Of a DNA stretch of 64,000 bases, positions 25,976-40,346 are shown piece after piece. Numbering within the stretch: position 1 is the stretch's first letter; the number at the start of each line of letters is the position of its first letter. The notes beneath the pieces were generated by a model. The model did no database searches. It was given only the letters and a program-made list of their open reading frames with translations, and was not told the origin of the DNA. The position numbers and the translations under genes were made by a program. Source of the stretch: Phycisphaerae bacterium (lineage in GTDB: Bacteria; Planctomycetota; Phycisphaerae; Phycisphaerales; UBA1924); NCBI GenBank assembly GCA_030432255.1, contig JAUIHS010000006.1:124001-188000 (forward strand), in the 5' to 3' direction.

Positions 25976-28900
25976 TTACTCCCGATCCAGCACGCGAAGG
26001 CGGACCTCGCGGCCGTTGCACTTGATCTCAGGGGCATACATCGCCTCTCCCTTCACAGGCAGGGCGTGGAACGAACCGGGGACCTCCGCTCGGAGAGTGT
26101 AGGTGAGTTCCCAGAAGCCCTGGTCCAGCGAGTTGATGAAGAAAGCCACGTGCCGGTCGCGCAGTTCGCGATACGTCGATCGCTGCCGACCTGTGTAGTC
26201 GGTGCGATCCTCGCCCGCTTGCCACTCAGCCTCCGCCTCCGCCTTTGCCTGGGCCGTTCCAAAGCGAAGCCGAGCGGCGCCCGCCGTGAGCTGACGCGCT
26301 GAGATGCCGCGCCCGCTCTTCACCTCGACGGCTTCGAGTCCGGCCGGCTTGAGATCTTCGATCAGGAGATAGCTGTAGTCGTTCTTCACTTCGATGCTGA
26401 CCACGACTTCGATCCGCTCGCCGGAACGAACGAAATCGCCATCGTTCAGTGGCACCCGTTCCTCGACGAATCCACGCAGCAGCGTCGGTCGCGGCACCAT
26501 CCGGTAGTACTGCCTGCGAATGAACATCTCATGTCCCGCCGCGGTGATCGGCTCTTCGAGACTGAAGAAGGAGCCCGAGACCATGTAGTAAAGCGGTGCC
26601 GCCGTGCCGTCGTCGTAGCTGGCCTCGATGCGGATCTCGTTGTGATCACGGATCAGTTCAGGGTCGACGGCGAATGTCGCCGGTGCCGCGATGATGTCGG
26701 CGGGCTTGAGCGTCCGCCTGGCGATCTGCTCGCCATTCACGCTCACGGTGTACGAAACGGTTCGCAGCGTCTCTCCGGACGCCCTCAGGTACTGGTTGAG
26801 AGCCATCACCACGATGGCGGTGTCCCGCGTGTTGGTCCAGCGGGCGCCGCGGCGGTTCTTCACCAGCCACATCATGGCAGCATCGACGAGTTCATGTTCC
26901 GGCTCGACCGTTGCCAATGCCATGAGTGCAAAGGACGTGGTTTCAATCGGGCTGTCAAACCAGCGGTACCAGAAGCCCGCCGCTCCCCAGCGCGCCGTCT
27001 GCACCACATGCGGGCTCTCGCGCACGGCTTCACGCATCACTGCTGACCGATCCGGAGACTGATCGACCTCTGCCGACGAAACGAGACGACCGATCATGTC
27101 CCGCGCACGATCGGGTTCCCCGTAGTGATGGAAGATCAGTGATGCGAGGGACTGGCCGAAGGCGTTCAACTGATCACGACCGTTCCACAGGTTCTCCAGC
27201 GCCGCCTTCTCGAAGCGCGATGGATTGCCATCCAGGTGCCGGCGCGCCTGCGACATGGCATGCAGCGTCCACGCCTGCTCCGTCGGACGATGCTCGTCTT
27301 CGACCAACTGACCCTGGAGGTAGCCCACTCCGCGTTCCAGCATCGCATGATCGAAATCCAGGTCCGCATCCGCCGCGAGGCTCAGACCCCACACCACGTA
27401 CGCCGTCATGTACCGGTTCGACGAATCAGTCTTCCACCAGCCCCAGCCGCCATCGCCTTGCTGCGTGTCAGCGAGACGCGCCAGGCTGACACGGATGACC
27501 TCATCCATCTCCGCCATGCTCACTTCCGCCTTCGGTCGATGCTCCGGCTCGATGCCGCCAAAGATGCCGCTGGCGACATCCTCACGCGACAGGCCCATGT
27601 CTCCAAGGGTACGTGCCGTGATCACGACCGGCAGGAAGCGTGACATCGTCTGTTCGGTACAGCCGTAGGGGTACCGCACGAGGTACGGCAGCGCATCGAG
27701 CATGGTCACCGCGATGCTGGGCGTCACCTGCACCGCGAGTTCCGTGGATCCCTCCTGGCGCGCCGATGGCAGGTCGAGACGGATCAACGACTCGAGCGCA
27801 GAAGTCCGCCCTGACTGCGCGATCAGTTTGTCGATGCCGTGCTCGTAGATCGGGTACGTCTTCTCCATGGCGTCCGAGTAGCGCTCGCCGGAGACCGAGA
27901 CAACGGTCGTCCGCAGCATGGCCTCACCGGCCTCGCGCGCATCGATCATCCAGTCCACGCGATACTCGCCACGGGCAGCGATCTCGATCGCCGCGTGACG
28001 CTCAGGCGTGGTCCGTTCAACGCCGTCAACGGCCAGTGCAGCATCAACCACGATGGCCTCGTCCGTGTTGTTGTTGATGATCGTCGAGATCATCACCTCA
28101 TCGCCGACCACGAAGAAACGCGGCGCCTGGAGGCGTGCCGTGACCGGCAGGATGGTGCGCACCTCGGCCGTTCCCGCACCCACATCTGTCCCCCTCGTCA
28201 CCGCCCGGGCGGTCGCCCGCCAGCGGGTCAGGTTGTCCGGGAAATTCACCTTGACGTGCGCTTCGCCGCGCTCGTCAGTCTGAACGGCGGGCAGCCAGAC
28301 GACCGTCGACCGGAAGTCGGAACGCACCTGCACATTCGGTACTCCCACCTCACCGGCAGGCGCAGCGGCCGGCGCGAAGTCGGCCTGGTCACGCCTGGAG
28401 AGGGATTCGGACTCCATGATCTCCGCCCCGGCGCTGAGTCCATCAGTCACCGCTGAACGGGTGATCCCCAGCCTCGCATTGACGCTGCGATCGTCATCGA
28501 AGAGGCCTCGGTCGCGCCCCGCCTTGCCGGCGTTGCGGCGATCCGCTTCCGCCTCTTCCTCCTTGCGATCCCACATGCCGTACTGACGCCATCCAAAGGA
28601 AGTCGATGAATTCACGAGGTTCTGACGCTTCTGACCGTAGAAGAACTGACGCGGATCGCCCGCGTAGTCCGACTGGATCGCAAACACCGAGTCATCCACA
28701 AGCGCCACCGAAACGGAAGCAGCAACCGGCCGCCCTTCGTAGTCACTCGTCTTCACCAGGAGCGAACCCTCTGCCTGAGGCTCGTACGCCTCGGCATCCG
28801 CCGTGACCTGGACGTCGAGGAAGTGCTTCACGGGCGGAACGACGACCTGTTCAGAGTCGCTCGTCACGCGTGCATCGGCGACCAGGTATGCCGAGATCCA

Positions 28901-31846
28901 CGTGTTCGGAACGTGTGCTTCAGTCAGATCAATGTGCGTGAGCTTCGCTGTTCCTTCCATGCGAATCACTTCGTAGGAGAGGATCGACTCCGACTCGACT
29001 GTAAAGAGCACGTGTCGGCGACTGCTCGGCGCCGTGATCATCACAGGCGCGCGCTCGCCCTCGCGGAAGGAGTCCTTGTCAACGATGACATCTACACCAT
29101 CGTGGTGATAGCCGAGGAACTCCGTCGACTCGTCCGCAACCCAGATCGATGCCGAAGCCTGAATGAGCCCGCGTCCCGGATCACGACTGATCCAGGTGAA
29201 TCGGTAGTAGCCCTCGCGCCCCGCAACATGCGTGACCGTCGCAAGCCCCTCGTCGTCCGTCTCCACGTCGAGGAGCGCAATCTCCTCAGACTCGTACCCG
29301 ATGAACTTCGGCTGCCAGAATGGCGAGAGCCCGCCGCGCCGCTTCAACTCGGAGTACTCGCGCCCCGTGATCTCGGTGCCATCGGGAAGCCGCCAGATCT
29401 CCTTCCACTCCAGACGCTCCACACGGACCTTGCCGCGATCCTGGATCGGGTTGTCATTGGCATCCACGGCACGGAACTCGACCTCCATCGCATCGCCCGG
29501 TGCCCGGATGCAGTGCTCGACCGTCGGATACACGAAGTAACTCTGACGCGTCACCTGCACCGCCTGCGAACTCGTGATCTCGCGGCGTGATGCATCCGTC
29601 ACCCGGCACTCGATGGTGTAGGTCAGGTCGTAGTCCGAATTGGCTGGTGTTTCGAAACCAATCCTGACACGCCCCTCCTCATCGGTGCGCAACTGCTCAC
29701 GACTGACCTGCTCGCCTTGCCAGCCCCAGCCGCGGCCGAAACTGCTCCGGGCGTTCGCATCCTCGAAGTACCAGTCGTACTCCCGCCGCGGCGACCACCA
29801 GTGATAGAAGGGACGCTGATGGATCACCACCTCGACCTCCGCCCCGGCCACCGGACCACCGAAGTAGTACTCCGCGACCATGTCCACCTCGACGCGTTCG
29901 CCCATCACTGAGGGGCGGAGTTTGCCGTCATCATCTCGCGGCGGTTCGATCCGCACGAGAAATTCGGGAAGCTTGTACTCCTCGAGTCGGAAGAGCGTCG
30001 CATAGCCGATGGTGTCCGTGGACCCATGCTTGTAGAAGCGGACGCGGTACTCACCAAGCATCATCTCGGACGTCACATCCAGAGAAGCGTGCGCTGTTCC
30101 GAAGGCATCCAACTCGACGGTGTCCTCGATCATCTTCTCGCCATTCGGGTTGTCGATGCGATAGCGGATCTTCTCACCCTCGGGCGTGGAGTAGGTCTCG
30201 CCTTGCTGCCGCGCCACGAATCGCCACTCCACCGTCTCGCCGGGCCGGTACGCCGGGCGGTCGGTGTAGGCGTAGATCCGCCAGGGATCATTGTTCGGTG
30301 TGCCGTGCCAGCGACCGGAGTAGTGCAGGGCCTGTCGATCACCGCTCCGCGCCGCCACGAACGAAGTCACCTGTCGACCCCGTTGTCCGTCCACCGTCAT
30401 GTCCAGCATCACGATGCCCTGCGCATCTGTCCTCCCGGTCCGACGATCCTGAATGCGATAGTGGTCGCGTTCGCGGATGTGACTGAACAGAGCGACTTCA
30501 GCATCAGGAACGGGCGCACCGGTGAGTGCATTACACACGTATACGAGCATCCGCTCCGGTGAGGACTTCTGCACGATCACGAGGTCCGACACGAGCAGCA
30601 GTTCGCGCTGGTCGTCCGGGCCGACGACCACGTACGCACCCGGCGCCAGTGGGTCTTCAATGTTCACGACCGAGTGTCCCGGATGATGATCGCCGCGGTC
30701 TTCCGTCTCGATATCCCAGGTGCGGACCGGGGCCACGCCCGAAACCTCAATCGACTGCAGCCAGTGGTCCACGCCGTGATCCCGGGTCGGCCGGATGTCG
30801 GCGGTCAGATCGGTCGGATAGAGCTTGACTGACACGCGATCCACGTTCCGCCAGTGCACGTGCAGTCGCTGATCCGAACCGGGGAGATAGACCTGATCCA
30901 CCCGGAGGTCGATCGTCTTCCCCGTGATCTCCCTGATCTGGTTCCGGGCCTCATCCCAGAATCGTGACTCGCCTCGATCGTACGTGCGCGTCAGCCGCTC
31001 GAACAACTCCACGGCCCGCACGTAATCCGGCTTCGCCGCCACGTAACCCTCATCCGTCACCTCGACCCGGCCCGTGTACAGCATGAACCGCGCGTAGTTG
31101 TACAGGGCATCGTCGTACCACTCCGTGCCGCGTCCCTTCGCGATGGCTTCCTCGTACGCTTCAATCGTGCGGCGATTGAGGACGTAGGTCTGGCCTCTGC
31201 TCGAAGTCGCCGAGGCATACAGGTATGACATGCGAGCAATGTCCCGGTCATCCACTGCGATCTCGCGAGCATCCGCGAGAATGGCATCGCTCAGCAGCGC
31301 ATTCCAGTGCCAGTTCCTCGCTTCGAGGACGTCGTACACCTTGTTCACGATGCCCAGGTATCGCTCGCGGGCTTCATCGACGTCCGTGCTGTTCGCCCAG
31401 TATTCGAACGCCCGTTGATACCACGGCTGGGCCGCGCCCCAGTTGGCGTGCCGCCGATTCAGCGCGCTCCACCAGAAATCACCGAGAGACTCCGCCGCCA
31501 GCGCATAGGCGAGGTCGCGGTCCGGTTCCCGCGTGTAGTGATCCTCGATCAGGCGTTCCAGCGATCGTCGGTAGCCGTCGTACGCAGACTCATCCGTGCG
31601 TCGCGCTCCGGACATCGCCCGCCAACCCGTGTCCGCCAGTCGGAACGTCACCCACCGCTGCTCGTCATCGGTCAGCGTCCGCTGACTGATCGACTCATAG
31701 AGCTTGTGCGCCTCACTCCAGGCGCCCCGGGCACAGGCATCCTCCGCGGCACTGAAGCCCGCCCCCGTGGGTGGAGCGGCAAGTGACCCCGTGTTCAGCA
31801 GGAGCACCGTCATGAGACAGGTCAGGAGATGTCGGATCGCGTGCAT
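25976..31846 (-). CDS. Bacterial alpha-2-macroglobulin with thioester motif
   Basis: Very large exported protein of 1956 aa. ATG 31846 starts a signal peptide (MHAIRHLLTCLMTVLLLNTG) and has GGAAGG 6 bases upstream. An N-terminal helical, TPR-like region (to about 330) is followed by macroglobulin domains, including an MG2-type segment (AYTDRPAYRPGETVEWRF), a bait-like region, the A2M family segment (VRSDFRSTVVWLPAVQTDERGEA, split here) and a thioester domain with GCTEQ (Cys about residue 1396; codon 27659-27661) within the alpha/alpha barrel. CxEQ forms an internal thioester that traps proteases covalently. In Proteobacteria the gene often pairs with PBP1C; none is seen here. Likely protects the cell envelope from foreign proteases. 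Confidence 0.9.
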   Translation of the reverse strand: MHAIRHLLTCLMTVLLLNTGSLAAPPTGAGFSAAEDACARGAWSEAHKLYESISQRTLTDDEQRWVTFRLADTGWRAMSGARRTDESAYDGYRRSLERLIEDHYTREPDRDLAYALAAESLGDFWWSALNRRHANWGAAQPWYQRAFEYWANSTDVDEARERYLGIVNKVYDVLEARNWHWNALLSDAILADAREIAVDDRDIARMSYLYASATSSRGQTYVLNRRTIEAYEEAIAKGRGTEWYDDALYNYARFMLYTGRVEVTDEGYVAAKPDYVRAVELFERLTRTYDRGESRFWDEARNQIREITGKTIDLRVDQVYLPGSDQRLHVHWRNVDRVSVKLYPTDLTADIRPTRDHGVDHWLQSIEVSGVAPVRTWDIETEDRGDHHPGHSVVNIEDPLAPGAYVVVGPDDQRELLLVSDLVIVQKSSPERMLVYVCNALTGAPVPDAEVALFSHIRERDHYRIQDRRTGRTDAQGIVMLDMTVDGQRGRQVTSFVAARSGDRQALHYSGRWHGTPNNDPWRIYAYTDRPAYRPGETVEWRFVARQQGETYSTPEGEKIRYRIDNPNGEKMIEDTVELDAFGTAHASLDVTSEMMLGEYRVRFYKHGSTDTIGYATLFRLEEYKLPEFLVRIEPPRDDDGKLRPSVMGERVEVDMVAEYYFGGPVAGAEVEVVIHQRPFYHWWSPRREYDWYFEDANARSSFGRGWGWQGEQVSREQLRTDEEGRVRIGFETPANSDYDLTYTIECRVTDASRREITSSQAVQVTRQSYFVYPTVEHCIRAPGDAMEVEFRAVDANDNPIQDRGKVRVERLEWKEIWRLPDGTEITGREYSELKRRGGLSPFWQPKFIGYESEEIALLDVETDDEGLATVTHVAGREGYYRFTWISRDPGRGLIQASASIWVADESTEFLGYHHDGVDVIVDKDSFREGERAPVMITAPSSRRHVLFTVESESILSYEVIRMEGTAKLTHIDLTEAHVPNTWISAYLVADARVTSDSEQVVVPPVKHFLDVQVTADAEAYEPQAEGSLLVKTSDYEGRPVAASVSVALVDDSVFAIQSDYAGDPRQFFYGQKRQNLVNSSTSFGWRQYGMWDRKEEEAEADRRNAGKAGRDRGLFDDDRSVNARLGITRSAVTDGLSAGAEIMESESLSRRDQADFAPAAAPAGEVGVPNVQVRSDFRSTVVWLPAVQTDERGEAHVKVNFPDNLTRWRATARAVTRGTDVGAGTAEVRTILPVTARLQAPRFFVVGDEVMISTIINNNTDEAIVVDAALAVDGVERTTPERHAAIEIAARGEYRVDWMIDAREAGEAMLRTTVVSVSGERYSDAMEKTYPIYEHGIDKLIAQSGRTSALESLIRLDLPSARQEGSTELAVQVTPSIAVTMLDALPYLVRYPYGCTEQTMSRFLPVVITARTLGDMGLSREDVASGIFGGIEPEHRPKAEVSMAEMDEVIRVSLARLADTQQGDGGWGWWKTDSSNRYMTAYVVWGLSLAADADLDFDHAMLERGVGYLQGQLVEDEHRPTEQAWTLHAMSQARRHLDGNPSRFEKAALENLWNGRDQLNAFGQSLASLIFHHYGEPDRARDMIGRLVSSAEVDQSPDRSAVMREAVRESPHVVQTARWGAAGFWYRWFDSPIETTSFALMALATVEPEHELVDAAMMWLVKNRRGARWTNTRDTAIVVMALNQYLRASGETLRTVSYTVSVNGEQIARRTLKPADIIAAPATFAVDPELIRDHNEIRIEASYDDGTAAPLYYMVSGSFFSLEEPITAAGHEMFIRRQYYRMVPRPTLLRGFVEERVPLNDGDFVRSGERIEVVVSIEVKNDYSYLLIEDLKPAGLEAVEVKSGRGISARQLTAGAARLRFGTAQAKAEAEAEWQAGEDRTDYTGRQRSTYRELRDRHVAFFINSLDQGFWELTYTLRAEVPGSFHALPVKGEAMYAPEIKCNGREVRLRVLDRE

Positions 31847-32002
31847 GTCATACCTTCCAGTTCGCGGGACAACGTGAGTCATCCTATCCATAGCTCACTT
31901 CGGCCAGACCGGGCCGTCACTTCCACGTGTCCGATGTCTATTTGTTTGTGCCGACTAATATCGCCGTCGTGACATTCCCGTGACACAACCCCTTCCCCTG
32001 CT

Positions 32003-33403
32003 TCAGGATGGGCGTTCGTCCCCTGGCACCGGGTCGGGAATCGGGCGGTCGTGGGGATCCGTCGCCACTTCGCCGCCCGCCGTCTCCAGTTCGTCCTGCA
32101 TGGCACGCGAAGTCACATGCTCCAGCGCCATCGCCGTCCGGTGCACATGATCGGGGCGCAGTCCCAGTTCGTGCACGAGGTAGTGCTCCCACAGACGATG
32201 CATGCGGATGATCCCCTGGGCACGCCGGCGACCCGCCTCCGTCAACCCGAACCGTCCCGATGCACCCATGATCTCCCCTCGACGCAGCGCGCCACGCAGC
32301 GCCACCCGGATCGCGAGACCCGGACCACCTCGGTCTCCGCGCAGTGCTTCGATGATCTGGACCTTCGACATGTCCCGCGGCGTTTCGCCATCCCCGGCGC
32401 TGTGGACCTCTTCAAGCCGATACAGCATCGCCAGCAGATCTTCACGCTCAATACGCACCGCCGTCATGAAGCGCCGTACATGCCGCGCCACAAGGCCGTG
32501 CCAGGGTGAGAACACGATGGTCAGGCCGAGCAGCACGCCCGAAGTCACCGTCATCGTGCCCGCGGCATCCAGAGACGGCGTCCCCGGCCCCACAACCAGC
32601 GCCGGCACGTGCGCCGCCACCATGTAGCCTCCGACCGATGACAGCACAGCGCACGCCACACTCAGCCACAGTTGGACATGCAGGCGATCCGTCAGCAGAC
32701 GCGCCGTCGCCGGCGGACAGATCAGCATCGCGATCACCTGAATCGACCCCACCGCCTCGAACGAGGCCACCACCGCGATGGAGACCAGGATCATCATCGC
32801 GTAGTGCATCCAACCCGGGCGGAACCCCAGCGTGCTCGCCAGGTCCGGATCGAAGGACGTGATCCGAAGTTCCTTGAAGAAGATCGTGATGAACAGCACG
32901 ACCACGATGCCGACCGAAACAAGCGTCAGAACCTCCCGCGGCAGGTTCTGCAGATGCCCCCACGAAAACGCATCGCCCCACCCCTCGGGACCCAGCCACG
33001 CAATATCCTCCAGTTGACCGTACAGCACACAGTCCGCATCCAGGTCGATGTGACTCGCGGCCGTCTGCTCCAGCAGGACGACCCCCAGTGCGAAGAGCAC
33101 CGAGAATGCGACGCCCATGCTCGCACCCGGATCAACCCTGCCCAACCGGCAAAGGAACTCCACGGCCACCGTCACCACAACCCCCGCGATCGCCGCACCC
33201 GCCACCACGGGGAGCGTCGCGCGCGATCCCACAAGCAGGAAGGCCACAACGATTCCCGGCAGCACGGCATGCGATATCGCATCGCCCATCAGGCTCAGAC
33301 GGCGCAGGAGCAGGAAGTTGCCGAGGAGGGCGCAACTGACCGCCGCGCATGTCGCCGCGGCGAGTGCCGGCACGTCATACTGGATGAAGAATGTGCTGTT
33401 CAT
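32003..33403 (-). CDS. Metal ABC transporter permease with DtxR-type C-terminal domain (second permease)
   Basis: ABC-3 family inner-membrane permease (MntB/TroC/TroD type), 466 aa. The first 290 residues hold about 8-9 helices with LLRRLSLMGDAISHAVLPGI and the family segment FKELRITSFDPDLASTLGF. The rest is a cytoplasmic domain resembling the helix-turn-helix and metal-binding/dimerisation region of DtxR/MntR repressors: LTEAGRRRAQGIIRMHRLWEHYLVHELGL and HRTAMALEHVTSRAM. It overlaps the preceding permease gene by 4 bases (ATGA). The domain may sense metal and gate transport; this is inference. Such fusions are known in several phyla. Confidence 0.88.
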   Translation of the reverse strand: MNSTFFIQYDVPALAAATCAAVSCALLGNFLLLRRLSLMGDAISHAVLPGIVVAFLLVGSRATLPVVAGAAIAGVVVTVAVEFLCRLGRVDPGASMGVAFSVLFALGVVLLEQTAASHIDLDADCVLYGQLEDIAWLGPEGWGDAFSWGHLQNLPREVLTLVSVGIVVVLFITIFFKELRITSFDPDLASTLGFRPGWMHYAMMILVSIAVVASFEAVGSIQVIAMLICPPATARLLTDRLHVQLWLSVACAVLSSVGGYMVAAHVPALVVGPGTPSLDAAGTMTVTSGVLLGLTIVFSPWHGLVARHVRRFMTAVRIEREDLLAMLYRLEEVHSAGDGETPRDMSKVQIIEALRGDRGGPGLAIRVALRGALRRGEIMGASGRFGLTEAGRRRAQGIIRMHRLWEHYLVHELGLRPDHVHRTAMALEHVTSRAMQDELETAGGEVATDPHDRPIPDPVPGDERPS

Positions 33404-34764
33404 CCCTGCGCCGTCTCCGGATCTCCGGTCAAGGGATGCACACTGGGCGGGAGCGCACCGCCGCGAGCGGCGACCGACTCTTCCAGTTGTCGGACCATTT
33501 CAGATGAAAGCACGTGCTCGACGAGATCCGCCGACCAGTCGACGTGCGAAGGCGCGATGTCCGCATGGCGCACGAGATACTCTTCCCACAGGCGATGATT
33601 CCTGGTAACACGAGCAGCCTGCTCGCGGCCGGTCGTCGTCAGTTCGAGTCCCCCGGAGGGATCCACATCAATCGCACCGCCGCTCCGGAGTTGCCGTATC
33701 GCGCGGCCGAGGCTCCGACCGGGCCATGCCCGCCGCGAACGCACTCCCGTGCGCGTCAGTCCCTCCGCATCGCCCACTTCGTCCGCCTCAAGGAGCATGC
33801 GAAGCAGGTGCTGCCGGTTGGTCCGGTCGTGGACACGCTTCGTGCGCACGACACCCGCAACAACGCCGCGAGCGGGCGCGAAGAACATGCTCAACAGGAA
33901 AACGCCCCCACTCGCCAGCACGATGACCGCGCCGGCGGGCAGACCGCCTGCCATGGCCGATGCCGCACCACCGGCATACCCCGAGAACCCGCCCAGCACC
34001 GCGGCGGTCAGCAACATGACAAACAGGCGGTCCGTCCAGAATCGTGCCGCGGCGGCCGGTATCACGATCATCGCCACGACCAGGATCAGACCGACCATCT
34101 GCAGACCGACGACCGTCACCAGAACCACGAACGTCATCATGATGATGTCGATCACACCGACCGGCCACCCCTGTGCCCGGGCATACTCCGCGTTGAAACA
34201 CACCACGCGGAATTCCTTCAGAAACGCGAGTGACACCAGCAGCACGAGCACCGCGAGCAGCGCCAGCACCATCGCATCGCGCCCCTGCATCGCCGCCGTC
34301 TGGCCGTAAATGAACTGCTGCAGGCCGCCGCGGTTGCCGATGTCCAGGCGCGCAATCACCTGCATCAGGACCACGCCGGCTCCGAAGAAGACCGAGAGCA
34401 CGATTCCGATCGCGGCGTCCTCGCGCAAGCGTGTGTGCCTCGATATGAAGAGCACCGTCAGCACACCGAGCACCCCGGTCACCGTCGCACCCGTCAGCAG
34501 AACGGGCATCGACCGGGGGTCAAATCCCATCCACGTGCCCAGCAGGAAGCCGCCGGCAACTCCTGGCAGTGTCGCGTGACTCAGGGCATCACCCATGAGG
34601 GCGCGGCCGCGAAGCAGGGCGAAGACCCCGATGGCACCGGCTGCCACACCAAGCATGATCGCACCGATGATGACCGCACTGGTGTTGTAGCCGGCGCGAA
34701 ACGTCAGTATCCGGAAGATCTCCTCCGCGCCTGGTGATGCGATGGCGGCGACAACCGCGCTCAT
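33400..34764 (-). CDS. Metal ABC transporter permease with DtxR-type C-terminal domain (first permease)
   Basis: ABC-3 family permease of 454 aa, paralogue of the next gene. Membrane helices fill residues about 20-300, with LLRGRALMGDALSHATLPGV and FLKEFRVVCFNAEYARAQGW as family landmarks. A linker leads to a DtxR-like C-terminal domain: LTTTGREQAARVTRNHRLWEEYLVRHADI and DWSADLVEHVLSSEM. Together the two permeases would form the membrane heterodimer. Stop/start overlaps of 4 bases on both sides (with the ATPase gene and the second permease gene) show tight translational coupling. A His/Glu pattern in the C-terminal domain is consistent with metal binding. Confidence 0.88.
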   Translation of the reverse strand: MSAVVAAIASPGAEEIFRILTFRAGYNTSAVIIGAIMLGVAAGAIGVFALLRGRALMGDALSHATLPGVAGGFLLGTWMGFDPRSMPVLLTGATVTGVLGVLTVLFISRHTRLREDAAIGIVLSVFFGAGVVLMQVIARLDIGNRGGLQQFIYGQTAAMQGRDAMVLALLAVLVLLVSLAFLKEFRVVCFNAEYARAQGWPVGVIDIIMMTFVVLVTVVGLQMVGLILVVAMIVIPAAAARFWTDRLFVMLLTAAVLGGFSGYAGGAASAMAGGLPAGAVIVLASGGVFLLSMFFAPARGVVAGVVRTKRVHDRTNRQHLLRMLLEADEVGDAEGLTRTGVRSRRAWPGRSLGRAIRQLRSGGAIDVDPSGGLELTTTGREQAARVTRNHRLWEEYLVRHADIAPSHVDWSADLVEHVLSSEMVRQLEESVAARGGALPPSVHPLTGDPETAQG

Positions 34765-35588
34765 CCCGGCTCGCCCCGGCGCGCCAGCGCATTGGCCGCT
34801 TCATCGAGCAACGTCAATCGTCCACCGTACGTCTTGAGGAGGTTCTCCTCCGTGAAGGTCTCGCGCACGGGTCCCGATGCGACGACGCGCATGTTCAGGA
34901 GGATCACCTCATCGAAGTATTCCGGCACGTTCTGAAGATCGTGGTGCACACAGATCACGGTCCGGCCCAGATCGCGCAGGTCGCGCAGCACATCGACGAT
35001 CGCGCGCTCGGTCGCCGCATCCACACCGGCGAAGGGCTCATCCATGAAGTACAGGTGCGCCTCCTGAGCCAGCGCCCGCGCCAGGAAGACGCGCTGCTGC
35101 TGGCCCCCGCTGAGCCGCCTGATCTGACGCGACTCCAGTCCGCTGAGTCCCACCTTCGCCAGACACTCCCGCGCCGCCTCTCGATGACGGCGCGACACCG
35201 GACGGCACCAGCCGATCAGGCCGTAGCGCCCCATGCACACCACATCCAGCGCCGACACGGGAAAGTCCCAGTCGACCGTCTCGCGCTGCGGCACGTACCC
35301 CACGATCGAGCGCTGCTTGCGATAGGGCTCACCATAGATCTCGATGAGGCCTGACGCCGTGGGAAGGAGTCCGAGACATGCCTTGATCAGTGTGGATTTC
35401 CCCGCGCCGTTCGGGCCAACGATCGCGATCAGGCGACCGCCCGTCGGCGCCTCATATTCGATGTCCCACAACACGGGACGCCGGTCATAGGCCACCGTCA
35501 TGTCGTGAATCGACAGCGGGCTCTCCGGACTGTGCTCGGGAAACGTTTCGAGCGACCGGGGTCGCTCCCCATGGTGCGGCATGACCAT
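34761..35588 (-). CDS. Metal ABC transporter ATP-binding protein
   Basis: ATPase subunit of 275 aa for Mn/Fe/Zn import. Walker A is GPNGAGKSTL, the signature motif RLSGGQQQRVFLARALAQ, Walker B LYFMDEPFAGVD, and the H-loop CVHHDL. The segment VPQRETVDWDFPVSALDVVCMGRYG is characteristic of the MntB/SitB/TroB group. The N terminus has about 25 extra residues before the domain. The start overlaps the stop of the binding-protein gene (TGATG); an ATG at 35582 is an alternative. The stop overlaps the first permease start by 4 bases. Confidence 0.93.
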   Translation of the reverse strand: MVMPHHGERPRSLETFPEHSPESPLSIHDMTVAYDRRPVLWDIEYEAPTGGRLIAIVGPNGAGKSTLIKACLGLLPTASGLIEIYGEPYRKQRSIVGYVPQRETVDWDFPVSALDVVCMGRYGLIGWCRPVSRRHREAARECLAKVGLSGLESRQIRRLSGGQQQRVFLARALAQEAHLYFMDEPFAGVDAATERAIVDVLRDLRDLGRTVICVHHDLQNVPEYFDEVILLNMRVVASGPVRETFTEENLLKTYGGRLTLLDEAANALARRGEPG

Positions 35589-36601
35589 CAGTGTGCCTCG
35601 TCCTCCCCGCCAAGTCGTCCCTGCATGCCTCGATCGGGCGCCTCGCCCCCCAGCGCACGTGCGATCGTCGTCACGTTGTGATCAATCATGCCGATGTACG
35701 TCCCCTCGTACGTCCCGGACGGACCCATCGCATCCGAGAAGAGCTCTCCACCAATCTCAACCGTGTGCCCCTGCCGCTTTGCGCCGGCAATGAGCGCCTT
35801 CACGTTGCGATCAGCGACCGTGCTCTCCACGAACACCGCGCGCACGCCGCGAGTCACGATCATCTCGACGAGCGCCTCGATATCCCGGACGCCCGCCTCC
35901 GATTCGGTACTGATCCCCTGGATGCCTCGAACCTCAAAGTCGTACGCCCGCGCAAAGTACTGGAACGCATCGTGCGCCGTGACGAGCACGCGACCCGCCT
36001 CCGGAACGGTCCCCAGCACCTCGCCGGCATACGCATGCAGCGCTTCCACGCGCTCCCGGTACGCCGCCGCATTCGCTTCGTACGACGCGGCACCCTCCGA
36101 ATCCAGTTCACCCAACGCATCACTGATGACCCCGGTGATCTTTGCCCACGCGGCGGGATCCATCCAGATGTGCGGATCGTAGTGCCCCTCCATGTCCTCG
36201 GGTTCCAGCAGATCCGACTCATCAAGAACGGCACCGACGGCAACCACGGGCTTGGTTGATGCGAGACGCACCAGCGCATCCGTCATCTTGCCTTCCAGCA
36301 GCAGGCCGTTGTAGAAGATCACGTCGGCTTCCGACATCAACTGATTGTCGGAACGGGTCATCTTGTACAGGTGCGGATCCACCCCCTCACCAATCAGGAT
36401 CGTCACCACGGCACGATCTCCCGCCACTTCCCGGACCACATCACCGATCATGGCCGTCGTCGCCACGACAGTCACTGTCTTCGAGCCGCCCGGAGTGTCT
36501 TCCCCGCCTGGACCGGCCGCTTCGTCCCGGCACCCCGCCAGGCCCACGCATAAGCCCACGGCAAACAGAGACAGCCATTTCCATGTTTGATGCATCGACA
36601 T
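35588..36601 (-). CDS. Metal-binding lipoprotein of ABC importer (MntA/TroA-like)
   Basis: Cluster A-I solute-binding protein of 337 aa. A lipoprotein signal peptide ends in GLAGC (Cys about residue 23). Metal ligands can be placed: His in GVDPHLYKMTRSD, His in YDPHIWMDP, Glu in GISTESEAG and Asp in ELFSDAMGPSGTYEGTYIGM. This set, and the lack of a His-rich loop, points to Mn(II)/Fe(II) rather than zinc. ATG 36601 is chosen; AAAGGA is about 6 bases upstream. First gene of a four-gene operon with its own promoter and operator (36619-36670). Confidence 0.92.
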   Translation of the reverse strand: MSMHQTWKWLSLFAVGLCVGLAGCRDEAAGPGGEDTPGGSKTVTVVATTAMIGDVVREVAGDRAVVTILIGEGVDPHLYKMTRSDNQLMSEADVIFYNGLLLEGKMTDALVRLASTKPVVAVGAVLDESDLLEPEDMEGHYDPHIWMDPAAWAKITGVISDALGELDSEGAASYEANAAAYRERVEALHAYAGEVLGTVPEAGRVLVTAHDAFQYFARAYDFEVRGIQGISTESEAGVRDIEALVEMIVTRGVRAVFVESTVADRNVKALIAGAKRQGHTVEIGGELFSDAMGPSGTYEGTYIGMIDHNVTTIARALGGEAPDRGMQGRLGGEDEAH

Positions 36602-36618
36602 ACACGTCCTTTCCATCC

Positions 36619-36632
36619 GTAGCATATGCTAC
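36619..36632 (-). promoter_or_regulatory. Perfect palindrome, probable metal-repressor operator
   Basis: GTAGCATATGCTAC is a perfect 14-bp palindrome lying just downstream of the -10 box, covering about +3 to +16 of the transcript and ending 17 bases before the start codon. Position and symmetry fit a repressor site of the DtxR/MntR type; identity of the repressor is inference. Confidence 0.65.
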
Positions 36633-36641
36633 ATTTCTGGC

Positions 36642-36670
36642 ATTGTAGCCCCCCACTCCCCAGCCGTCAA
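36642..36670 (-). promoter_or_regulatory. Sigma-70 promoter of the metal importer operon
   Basis: On the minus strand TTGACG (36665-36670) and TACAAT (36642-36647) are separated by exactly 17 bases, one mismatch each from the consensus. The start point would be near 36634-36636, next to the palindrome. Confidence 0.75.
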
Positions 36671-36742: not shown

Positions 36743-36774
36743 AGGCCCCGGATGCGGGCGTGCATCCGGGGCCT
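36743..36774 (-). terminator. Terminator of the cytochrome/beta-propeller gene
   Basis: AGGCCCCGGATGC (36743-36755) pairs perfectly with GCATCCGGGGCCT (36762-36774) around a 6-base loop, 30 bases past the stop codon of the gene ending at 36804. The minus-strand tail is TGTTGTTGG, moderately U-rich. Confidence 0.75.
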
Positions 36775-36803: not shown

Positions 36804-39800
36804 TCACGGTGTCACTGGCTGAACCAGCGCCTGCCCGGCACCGCCGCACTGGGTCCCCCACGCGCCCAGCACGATGTTCAGGTCGTCGAACGTCACCCGG
36901 CAGTCACCGTCGAGGTCGCCGTCATGCTGGCGAGCCTCGAGCTTGTTCCAGTTCGAGAGCACCGTGTTCAGGTCGTCGAAGTTGACCAGCGTGTCGTCAT
37001 TCACATCACCTTCCTTGTACAGCGGCCGCGAATCCAGGCGATTCACCACGCAGTCGCGATCCCAGTCAATCCCGAGACGCAATCCCGATCCGGGTGGCAC
37101 CGCCGTCACCACGAAGGACACGCCCGCCCGAATCATGTCCTCGACCTGACCCAGCGTCAGCATCTCATCCACATCCGTCCGGAAGAGTGGAGTCGCGCCT
37201 CCCTGCGTCATCGTCATTCCCCGCGCTGCTCCGGCAGCACTCCAGCGCACGATCACATCACAACGCGTCGGAAGCAGGTCGTGCTGCGCGATCATCTCGG
37301 TCAGCTTCGCCTGTTGAGATGGATCACTTTCGTCGTCCCAGATGAACTGCTGCCCGACGACCGGCATCACGTTCGTCTGGAACGCGTTCATGAACGCAAT
37401 CATCTCGTCGCCCTGAGCCGCGATGCCCGGAAAGATGGTGTTCAGGAATTCCTGCAGGGGGTGATCCGCAGACTCGCGCTCCTCGCGTGCATCATGCAGC
37501 AGGCCGAACCCCGTGTACAGGTCAGCCTGGAACTTGTCGTTGATGCCGCGGAACTGCGGCACCAGTTGAATCTGGCCATAGAAGGGCATGCCGCCATAGG
37601 CGAAGGCAATGTCGCCGTCTGCACATGCATCATCGAGCGCGCCGTCCGCCTCCAGCGCATGACACACCTGGCACTGGGCCAGGTAATTGACCCGGCCGAT
37701 CAGGGCGCCCGAATCCTTGAACGTATTGTTGCGAGCACGGTACCAGGTCGGCATGTACTCCATGGTGTCGATGAATGCCGTGAACGTGTTCATCTCCTCG
37801 TCCGACAACTCCTCCTCCGCGCCCAGCAGACCGGTGAACGCCGGATTGAAGGCCTGGAAGTCCGGACGATCGCCGCGCCAGTGGAACGGCGCCCGGTTCG
37901 CAAGCCCGCGCAGGGACTGGGTGAACATCGGGCCCTTGATCGGATGATTCTCGACGAACTCGTTCTGATTGCACAGATCGAACGCGCTCAGCGATGTATG
38001 CGGCTTCTCAAGGAAACCCGTTTTGGTCTGGTCACCCAGATCCCATGCCAGCTTGTCCATGTGACCCGACGGATGACACGACGCACACGAATGACCGAAG
38101 TTGTTCGTGAACTGGTTGCTGTACAGGAACTGCCGACCCTCACGCTGAAACGCATACTCAGGGCTCGACAGGCATATGGAATCCACCACCATCAACGCAT
38201 CCGACGATATGTCGAGACGCGTCACCATCTGGTTCACGCGATCCCACGCATACAGGCGCTGCCCGTCCACATCCAGCGCCAGGCTTCGCGGCGACGAGTG
38301 CTCACCCGGCAGGTCCACGCGCCCCAGCACCGTCCCATTCGATGCCAACACGCCAATGCGTCCCACGCCGGATGCCGCCACATACGCCTTCTGCCCGTCG
38401 CCGCTGAAGACCACATCCAGCGGATTCGCGAGCGACATGGCCTGCGCCTCGGGATTCGGAGCGCTCACGTCATCGAAGTTCGCGACCGAAGCATGCAGGT
38501 TCTCGTGCATTGCGACGGGCGATGCCGAATGAAAACCCGTGACCTCGACCATCTCATGCTCAAGGATGTTGCCGCGAAGAACGTTCTCGAGGCGGACCGT
38601 GTTGTTGGGCTGATGATTGGAGATCAGAAGCGTCGAACCATCCGGCGACAGCGCCATGCCCGCAAGCCGCGCACCGATATTGCCGAGGATGCTCGTCACC
38701 TGCATGCTCCCGACGGTGCCCGGCGTCGAGACATCAACGATCACCAGGTCGTGGTCCGTGGTGTCCTTCGCATCATTGATCACCGCGGCGAGCACATCCG
38801 TAGCATTCCGCAGATTGACCGGTGTCCCCGTGACCTGCTCGTAGAGCGTCTCCCAGACGGATTCGAGTTCCGACACCATCGCCGGATCCGGATCACCATT
38901 CGGGAGCGACAGCACGTCCACGATCTGCTGCCACGGGTGGTCCCCCGTCGACGGGTGGCCCGCATCCGTCACGATGCGCTGCACGAGTTCCTGGCCGCCC
39001 AGTCCGCTGAAAGTCACATCCGGCCAGGGCGACAGCTTCGGGCTCGACCACGCCACCTGTGTCGATGTCATGAACAGCGGTACGACCAGGCCGGGATAGA
39101 ACTCGATGATGTCCGGCTCCTCGAAACCGTCGTCCAGTTCAAGGTTGTCCATCTCGAAGACCACCGGGAATCCGGCAACCGTCGTGTTGTTCCCTGAGTC
39201 GTGCGCCGCCACGATCACGGTCTCCGTCGAAGCGTCGTACACTGCGGCACGGGGCGTGAAACAGTCGAGCCATGTGCTCTCCACGATCTGGAGTGCTCCC
39301 GTGTCGATCGACACCAGCGCTCCCTCCTGGGCCAGGTCCGTCGGCGCGCCCGGCTTGGCGTCCAGCACGGCAGGACTTCCCTCGCACACGATGAAGGCAT
39401 GGGAGCCCGATGCGTTGAACAGGATCCGGTTCGGCCGGTCGCCCACTTCGATCACGGCGAGCACGCCGCGCGTGGTCGGATCGATCACCATCACATTGTC
39501 CGACACGTAGTTGGCCACCCACAGGCGCCGTGTTCCCGGTTCCACCGCCAGCGCCGACGGCTCAAGCCCCACTGGGATCTCCCCGACCGGCTTCATCCGG
39601 GTACCGGAGAGATCAATGATGGTCACCGAGGCGTTCGGCGGGTTCACGGCGTACAAACGCTCGGCCGCCGAGTCGAGCGCCAGCGCCTTGTGAATCGGCG
39701 CCTCGAAGTTCACCACCTCACCCTGCACCAGCGGGCCCGGTGGCGCTGCGTCCGGGTCAAAGGGAGGCGCGCCGCCTCGCGGCCCGAATCCCGCCATCGC

Positions 39801-39998
39801 TCGGATCGCCGCTTCGGTGTGGTGCCCGGCTCCCACCGGAATCCGCAGCGCTTCAAGATCCGATTTGCTGATCGGCGCCGGCGGCCCGAAGCCACCCGCA
39901 CCCATGCGACTCGTGATCACGTCCGGTGACGCCGCTGTATGGCTCACGCCTGACAACAACACGCCCGCCGCCAACGCAACTGTTCTGGTCCTCGACAT
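36804..39998 (-). CDS. Secreted dihaem cytochrome/YVTN beta-propeller protein with dockerin-like repeats
   Basis: Exported protein of 1064 aa; ATG 39998 starts the signal peptide (MSRTRTVALAAGVLLSG). The N-terminal half is a beta-propeller of YVTN/lactonase type (ALAVEPGTRRLWVANYVSDNVMVIDPTTRG, split here). The C-terminal half has two haem-binding CxxCH motifs, CASCH (near 38090) and CQVCH (near 37670), with GPMFTQSLRGLANRAPFHWRGDR as in MauG/cytochrome c peroxidase relatives. Two dockerin-like repeats follow (near 36850-37015), then WGTQC and a 13-residue tail. An electron-transfer or oxidase role outside the cytoplasm is likely; the substrate is unknown. Confidence 0.85.
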   Translation of the reverse strand: MSRTRTVALAAGVLLSGVSHTAASPDVITSRMGAGGFGPPAPISKSDLEALRIPVGAGHHTEAAIRAMAGFGPRGGAPPFDPDAAPPGPLVQGEVVNFEAPIHKALALDSAAERLYAVNPPNASVTIIDLSGTRMKPVGEIPVGLEPSALAVEPGTRRLWVANYVSDNVMVIDPTTRGVLAVIEVGDRPNRILFNASGSHAFIVCEGSPAVLDAKPGAPTDLAQEGALVSIDTGALQIVESTWLDCFTPRAAVYDASTETVIVAAHDSGNNTTVAGFPVVFEMDNLELDDGFEEPDIIEFYPGLVVPLFMTSTQVAWSSPKLSPWPDVTFSGLGGQELVQRIVTDAGHPSTGDHPWQQIVDVLSLPNGDPDPAMVSELESVWETLYEQVTGTPVNLRNATDVLAAVINDAKDTTDHDLVIVDVSTPGTVGSMQVTSILGNIGARLAGMALSPDGSTLLISNHQPNNTVRLENVLRGNILEHEMVEVTGFHSASPVAMHENLHASVANFDDVSAPNPEAQAMSLANPLDVVFSGDGQKAYVAASGVGRIGVLASNGTVLGRVDLPGEHSSPRSLALDVDGQRLYAWDRVNQMVTRLDISSDALMVVDSICLSSPEYAFQREGRQFLYSNQFTNNFGHSCASCHPSGHMDKLAWDLGDQTKTGFLEKPHTSLSAFDLCNQNEFVENHPIKGPMFTQSLRGLANRAPFHWRGDRPDFQAFNPAFTGLLGAEEELSDEEMNTFTAFIDTMEYMPTWYRARNNTFKDSGALIGRVNYLAQCQVCHALEADGALDDACADGDIAFAYGGMPFYGQIQLVPQFRGINDKFQADLYTGFGLLHDAREERESADHPLQEFLNTIFPGIAAQGDEMIAFMNAFQTNVMPVVGQQFIWDDESDPSQQAKLTEMIAQHDLLPTRCDVIVRWSAAGAARGMTMTQGGATPLFRTDVDEMLTLGQVEDMIRAGVSFVVTAVPPGSGLRLGIDWDRDCVVNRLDSRPLYKEGDVNDDTLVNFDDLNTVLSNWNKLEARQHDGDLDGDCRVTFDDLNIVLGAWGTQCGGAGQALVQPVTP

Positions 39999-40346
39999 CG
40001 TGTGGGTCTCCTCTGGGGATTCCGGAATGTGAATCCACGCACCGGGAGTGCAACGAGCGTTCCACCTGTCTGGAATTCCGAACTCCACGTGCCGAAGCCG
40101 CGGGCCTGATCGCAGATTGCCGAAGTTTGCGCAACATCAGACCCGGTTCAGTCCTCCCGAAAGGACCCCGCTCCGGTTCGCCACCCCTGGTGAAAATTCC
40201 TGCCACCAGCGCTGTGGGAAATATTGGCCTGCTCCAATCCGTCATATTCGGGTTGTGTCTCCCCCTCCCCCCTCGTACTCTTGAAGTCTGATGGTGAGCG
40301 CGGCCGGGAGCGCATGATGAGGGGACGTGGGAGAGACGGAGGAAGT
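39999..40346. other. Intergenic region, divergent promoters
   Basis: About 350 bases between the divergent cytochrome and prepilin genes. No credible gene. A 10-bp palindrome ATTCCGGAAT is at 40019-40028 in the leader of the minus-strand gene. A TTGGCC...TATTCG pair near 40225-40250 has poor spacing; I do not call a promoter. Confidence 0.35.

Follow-up and report, generated by a model that had tools for sequence, protein, structure and literature searches.

The palindrome at the predicted transcription start of a TroABCD-like metal importer operon is, judging from its sequence, its conservation and the genomes in which it occurs, very probably an MntR box, the operator of an E. coli-type MntR whose gene is on another contig of the genome. 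The operon lies in a 64-kb stretch of DNA, here called the window; among named organisms, its closest relatives are MAGs of the Phycisphaerales (Planctomycetota). The operon and its upstream region contain the following features (window coordinates):

36743–36774, minus strand: intrinsic-terminator-like hairpin between the upstream gene (36804–40088, minus strand) and the importer promoter
36665–36670, minus strand: -35 element TTGACG (sequence, promoter scan)
36642–36647, minus strand: -10 element TACAAT, 17-nt spacer from the -35 element (promoter scan)
36618–36633, minus strand: candidate MntR box TGTAGCATATGCTACG, 16 bp, conserved in orthologous operons
36607–36614, minus strand: Shine-Dalgarno-like GGAAAGGA (sequence)
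35588–36601, minus strand: substrate-binding lipoprotein (SBP), TroA/ZnuA family (PF01297, E = 8e-79; PDB TroA 1toa, E = 8.5e-69)
34761–35588, minus strand: importer ABC ATPase (PF00005; best NCBIfam match Deinococcus MntA, below its cut-off)
33400–34764, minus strand: ABC-3 permease 1 (PF00950) with a C-terminal DtxR-like dimerisation domain (PF02742, ∼33472–33639)
32003–33403, minus strand: ABC-3 permease 2 (PF00950) with a C-terminal DtxR-like domain (PF02742, ∼32033–32242)

The Importer Operon and Its Promoter

Along the minus strand the region reads TTGACG, 17 bases, TACAAT, GCCAGAAA, TGTAGCATATGCTACG, GGAAAGGA and, from 36601, ATGTCGATG. The original prediction had described a sigma-70 promoter followed by a perfect palindrome at the start of transcription, and all of these elements were found in place. 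Based on the usual distance between the -10 element and +1, transcription is predicted to start at ∼36635, which puts the box at about +2 to +17; the perfect 14-bp palindrome GTAGCATATGCTAC (36632–36619) is contained within its 16 bp. The longest mechanically called SBP reading frame opens with an ATG at 36625, inside the palindrome. The ATG at 36601, with GGAAAGGA ahead of it and a lipoprotein signal ending in LAGC, is the likely start codon.

In a promoter scan TTGACG-17-TACAAT (36670–36642) scored 10 of 12 matches and was the sole site with at least 10/12 on either strand of the window. Markov-resampled window sequences, however, contain 0–3 such sites each; what makes the promoter stand out is where it lies, not that it exists. 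Perfect 14-bp palindromes occur ten times in the window, and a promoter or a palindrome alone is weak evidence. The significance of this palindrome comes from its conservation relative to shuffled sequences and permuted half-sites.

The operon has the composition of a TroABCD (cluster A-I) importer: a TroA-type SBP with the H, H, H, D site, an ATPase and two ABC-3 permeases. When aligned to 1toa, the SBP keeps the DPHLY, DPHxW, AHDAF and FSDAM motifs. It scores below every NCBIfam Mn and Zn equivalog cut-off, and TroA, the closest solved structure, is named zinc-binding in one PDB entry. We take Mn to be the transported metal because of MntR; the metal of the importer and the regulator could include Zn or Fe. 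A gene encoding a 1971-aa bacterial alpha-2-macroglobulin-like protein (25976–31891, minus strand) is located directly downstream of the operon.

The Palindrome Is Conserved Upstream of Orthologous Operons

We compared the locus with 80 relatives, most of which have strong SBP orthologues. The palindrome had been expected to be conserved upstream of orthologous operons if functional, and this is what we observed: 37 of 59 upstream regions (the window's included) carry the box with at most two mismatches, whereas shuffling predicts 0.4 of 59, and 60 permuted half-sites gave a mean of 0.47 of 58 regions and a maximum of 3. The box recurs as TGTAGC-N4-GCTACA ahead of orthologous operons with the same gene order. 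The window's TGTAGCATATGCTACG differs from this pattern at one position, the right arm ending in G instead of A.

In an alignment of 40 sites the arms are near-invariant, with the G, T and A of one arm and the A and C of the other strictly so, and the consensus half-site is ATGTAGC. The shoulders are A-rich and T-rich (AAATGTAGC...GCTACATTT). The spacer and the outer flanks drift, and the distant flanks carry little information. In several relatives the box lies over the -10 element (e.g., TTGACT-17-GATAAT running into GTAGC) and in others just downstream of it, as in the window; both positions suit repression. The gene whose promoter or transcription start the box covers is one for metal transport, and box and regulator are conserved together.

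Occurrence of the Box Follows E. coli-Type MntR

The window had been said to contain no free repressor gene, which is correct; the probable repressor gene is located on another contig. The window genome (G000) encodes three PF02742 domains, two on the importer permeases and one in a free protein on contig C115 (G000:C115:65595-66023). This protein is an E. coli-type MntR, scoring 175.5 bits against the NCBIfam equivalog NF008273 (cut-off 153). Its best PDB match is E. coli MntR (2h09), and each of the six residues that bind metal in B. subtilis MntR (D8, E11, H77, E99, E102, H103) aligns with an identical residue.

MntR scores across the relatives split cleanly into values of at least 108 bits or at most 62 bits. 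In genomes with an E. coli-type MntR, a box was found within 200 bp of the SBP gene in 36 of 40 and within 600 bp in all 40; in three of the four genomes where it lies at 200–600 bp, mntR stands between the box and the SBP gene. Only 1 of the 19 genomes without this MntR has a box (Fisher p = 2e-10 vs. the MntR group), and that genome (G025) is 81% complete. The 40 MntR genomes all belong to different genera, and both states, with and without MntR, were seen within four families, which lowers the risk that shared ancestry alone creates the link. In many relatives mntR adjoins the importer operon, often with the box in between.

A wider set included nine loci with MntR nearby but no box at two mismatches or fewer, four of which have a variant that keeps TAGC. 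MntR proteins with Lys in the recognition helix (L194, L216, L226, L189) were seen beside the variant boxes TATAGC or CTTAGC, and those with Arg beside TGTAGC. This hints at a strict code in which Arg in the recognition helix goes with TGTAGC and Lys with TATAGC, but exceptions were found; the Lys/Arg difference is a possible specificity switch that would have to allow for these.

Importers of Zn, Fe or Mn are under the control of Fur-family proteins in other bacteria, and the window genome encodes four Fur-family sensors, so the box could be the operator of a Fur, Zur or Mur protein. We consider this very unlikely. All 81 genomes have Fur-family genes, whether or not they carry the box, so these genes do not account for where the box occurs; its distribution follows MntR, and it also has the core of the E. 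coli MntR site. The PF02742 domains on both permeases, together with the lack of a free repressor in the window, would fit a membrane-tethered self-repressor that binds the operator. The fusion is, however, found at 33 of the 34 box-bearing loci and at 38 of the 40 that lack the box, and being nearly universal it does not explain the pattern. In the fused domains the dimerisation domain is the only part with a Pfam score, the helix-turn-helix is degenerate, and of the six MntR ligands three are changed in permease 1 and two in permease 2; they lack the intact helix-turn-helix and ligand set of a DNA-binding DtxR repressor, which makes operator binding by the permeases highly improbable. A functionless chance palindrome, which the ten 14-bp palindromes of the window might suggest, has next to nothing in its favor given a box that is conserved across 40 genera despite spacer and flank drift and that co-occurs with one specific regulator, MntR.

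Comparison With Known Systems

The MntR operator of E. coli mntH was described by Patzer and Hantke (2001; cited in PMC3852070). The regulator of that system belongs to the same NCBIfam equivalog as the MntR found here, and in both cases a Mn importer would be under its control. We read the mntH promoter in NC_000913 as AAACATAGCAAAGGCTATGTTT. It shares with the window the inner TAGC-N4-GCTA and the 4-nt spacer, the core in the window being TAGC-ATAT-GCTA. The outer bases differ, as the half-site is ATGTAGC here and ACATAGC in E. coli. Judging from the alignments, ATGTAGC is a lineage variant and the outer bases do not define the regulator family. The target also differs, being an ABC operon with permease-fused domains, unlike E. 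coli mntH. The conservation of the box, its co-occurrence with MntR and the shared mntH core support the idea of the original prediction that a DtxR/MntR-type protein acts at the palindrome, and such an MntR is encoded in the same genome.

In the Treponema TroR/troABCDR system, metal-dependent repression by a DtxR-family protein acts via a dyad near the promoter, with an offset that varies between species (PMC2628430). The importer studied here shares with it TroA as the closest solved SBP and a probable DtxR-family operator dyad near the promoter, but its proposed regulator is of the short E. coli MntR type and unlinked in the genome, and the operator sequence is different.

Other Genes Preceded by the Box

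In the window genome we found one convincing box. Further copies of GTAGCATATGCTAC, which had been thought worth seeking near metal genes, did not turn up: across the 4.54-Mb genome the importer site is the only exact copy. The exact pattern TGTAGC-N4-GCTACA has one match (C110:92551), which falls at the 3′ end of a gene of acetyltransferase type and has no gene start near it; this match is probably due to chance, as a reversed control pattern gave four exact hits. Among the other one-mismatch sites, two are intragenic and one precedes an ffh-like gene. No box was found near the genome's own mntR, and autoregulation is not supported; nor was one found near its incomplete Nramp gene. This gene (L255, G000:C113 ∼172–759) lies close to the end of its contig, matches the 357-position profile only over its first 149 positions and is possibly broken or misassembled. 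A search of the window genome for MntP found none.

In the relatives, exact boxes precede mntR (L073; divergently at L074), an Nramp transporter (L088) and an importer ATPase gene (L081). Exact boxes, some in tandem, also precede seven PF13557 outer-membrane barrels (L076, L079, L089, L095, L098, L100, L102), and one lies directly upstream of an OprB-family porin (L091:161-1456). In G010, G020 and G029, which lack this MntR and have another DtxR-type regulator, close members of PF13557 lie beside the importer, which ties them to the uptake system independently. We therefore regard the PF13557 barrels as candidate outer-membrane Mn channels. The outer-membrane Mn channel MnoP of Bradyrhizobium (PMC9334652) is a precedent for a dedicated route of the kind that the PF13557 and OprB genes under the box suggest, but the barrel family and the regulator are different, and the route proposed here is a prediction for the relatives; no PF13557 barrel of the box-bearing kind was found in the window genome. 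Exact boxes were also seen just upstream of genes encoding a prepilin-type N-methylation protein (L099 in G012; L248 in G016, in tandem).

Proposed Regulation of the Importer

We suggest that, when Mn(II) is sufficient, dimeric Mn-MntR would bind TGTAGC-N4-GCTACA over the transcription start. Bound at +2 to +17, it would stop RNA polymerase from using the TTGACG/TACAAT promoter, which would switch the TroABCD-like operon off; as Mn falls, MntR would be released and the importer made. From homology, position and conservation we infer that MntR binds and represses here, and that the metal sensed is Mn and not Zn or Fe.

The fusion of a DtxR-like domain to the permease is near universal in the importer lineage (Planctomycetota, Verrucomicrobiota and others), and the fused domains could sense metal to gate transport. 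A search of open-access papers found no paper on the TGTAGC-N4-GCTACA motif or on the permease-DtxR fusion. It is possible, though we hold it to be rather doubtful, that the Phycisphaerales have in common an MntR regulon that uses an operator dialect of its own, TGTAGC-N4-GCTACA. It would comprise mntR, Nramp, the Tro/Mnt ABC importer and dedicated outer-membrane barrels for Mn from the OprB and PF13557 families (the latter named for phenol degradation), and the permease-fused DtxR domains would sense metal and throttle transport, so that both expression and activity would be controlled.

The system described here is metal control of an ordinary kind, in which the operator sequence deviates slightly in a lineage-specific way. 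For a phylum whose gene regulation is sparsely documented, it provides an Mn operator and a regulator that can be predicted, and Mn-controlled genes may be found by searching sequences with the box. The unassigned outer-membrane barrels and the permease-fused sensor domains would then be testable parts of Mn uptake.
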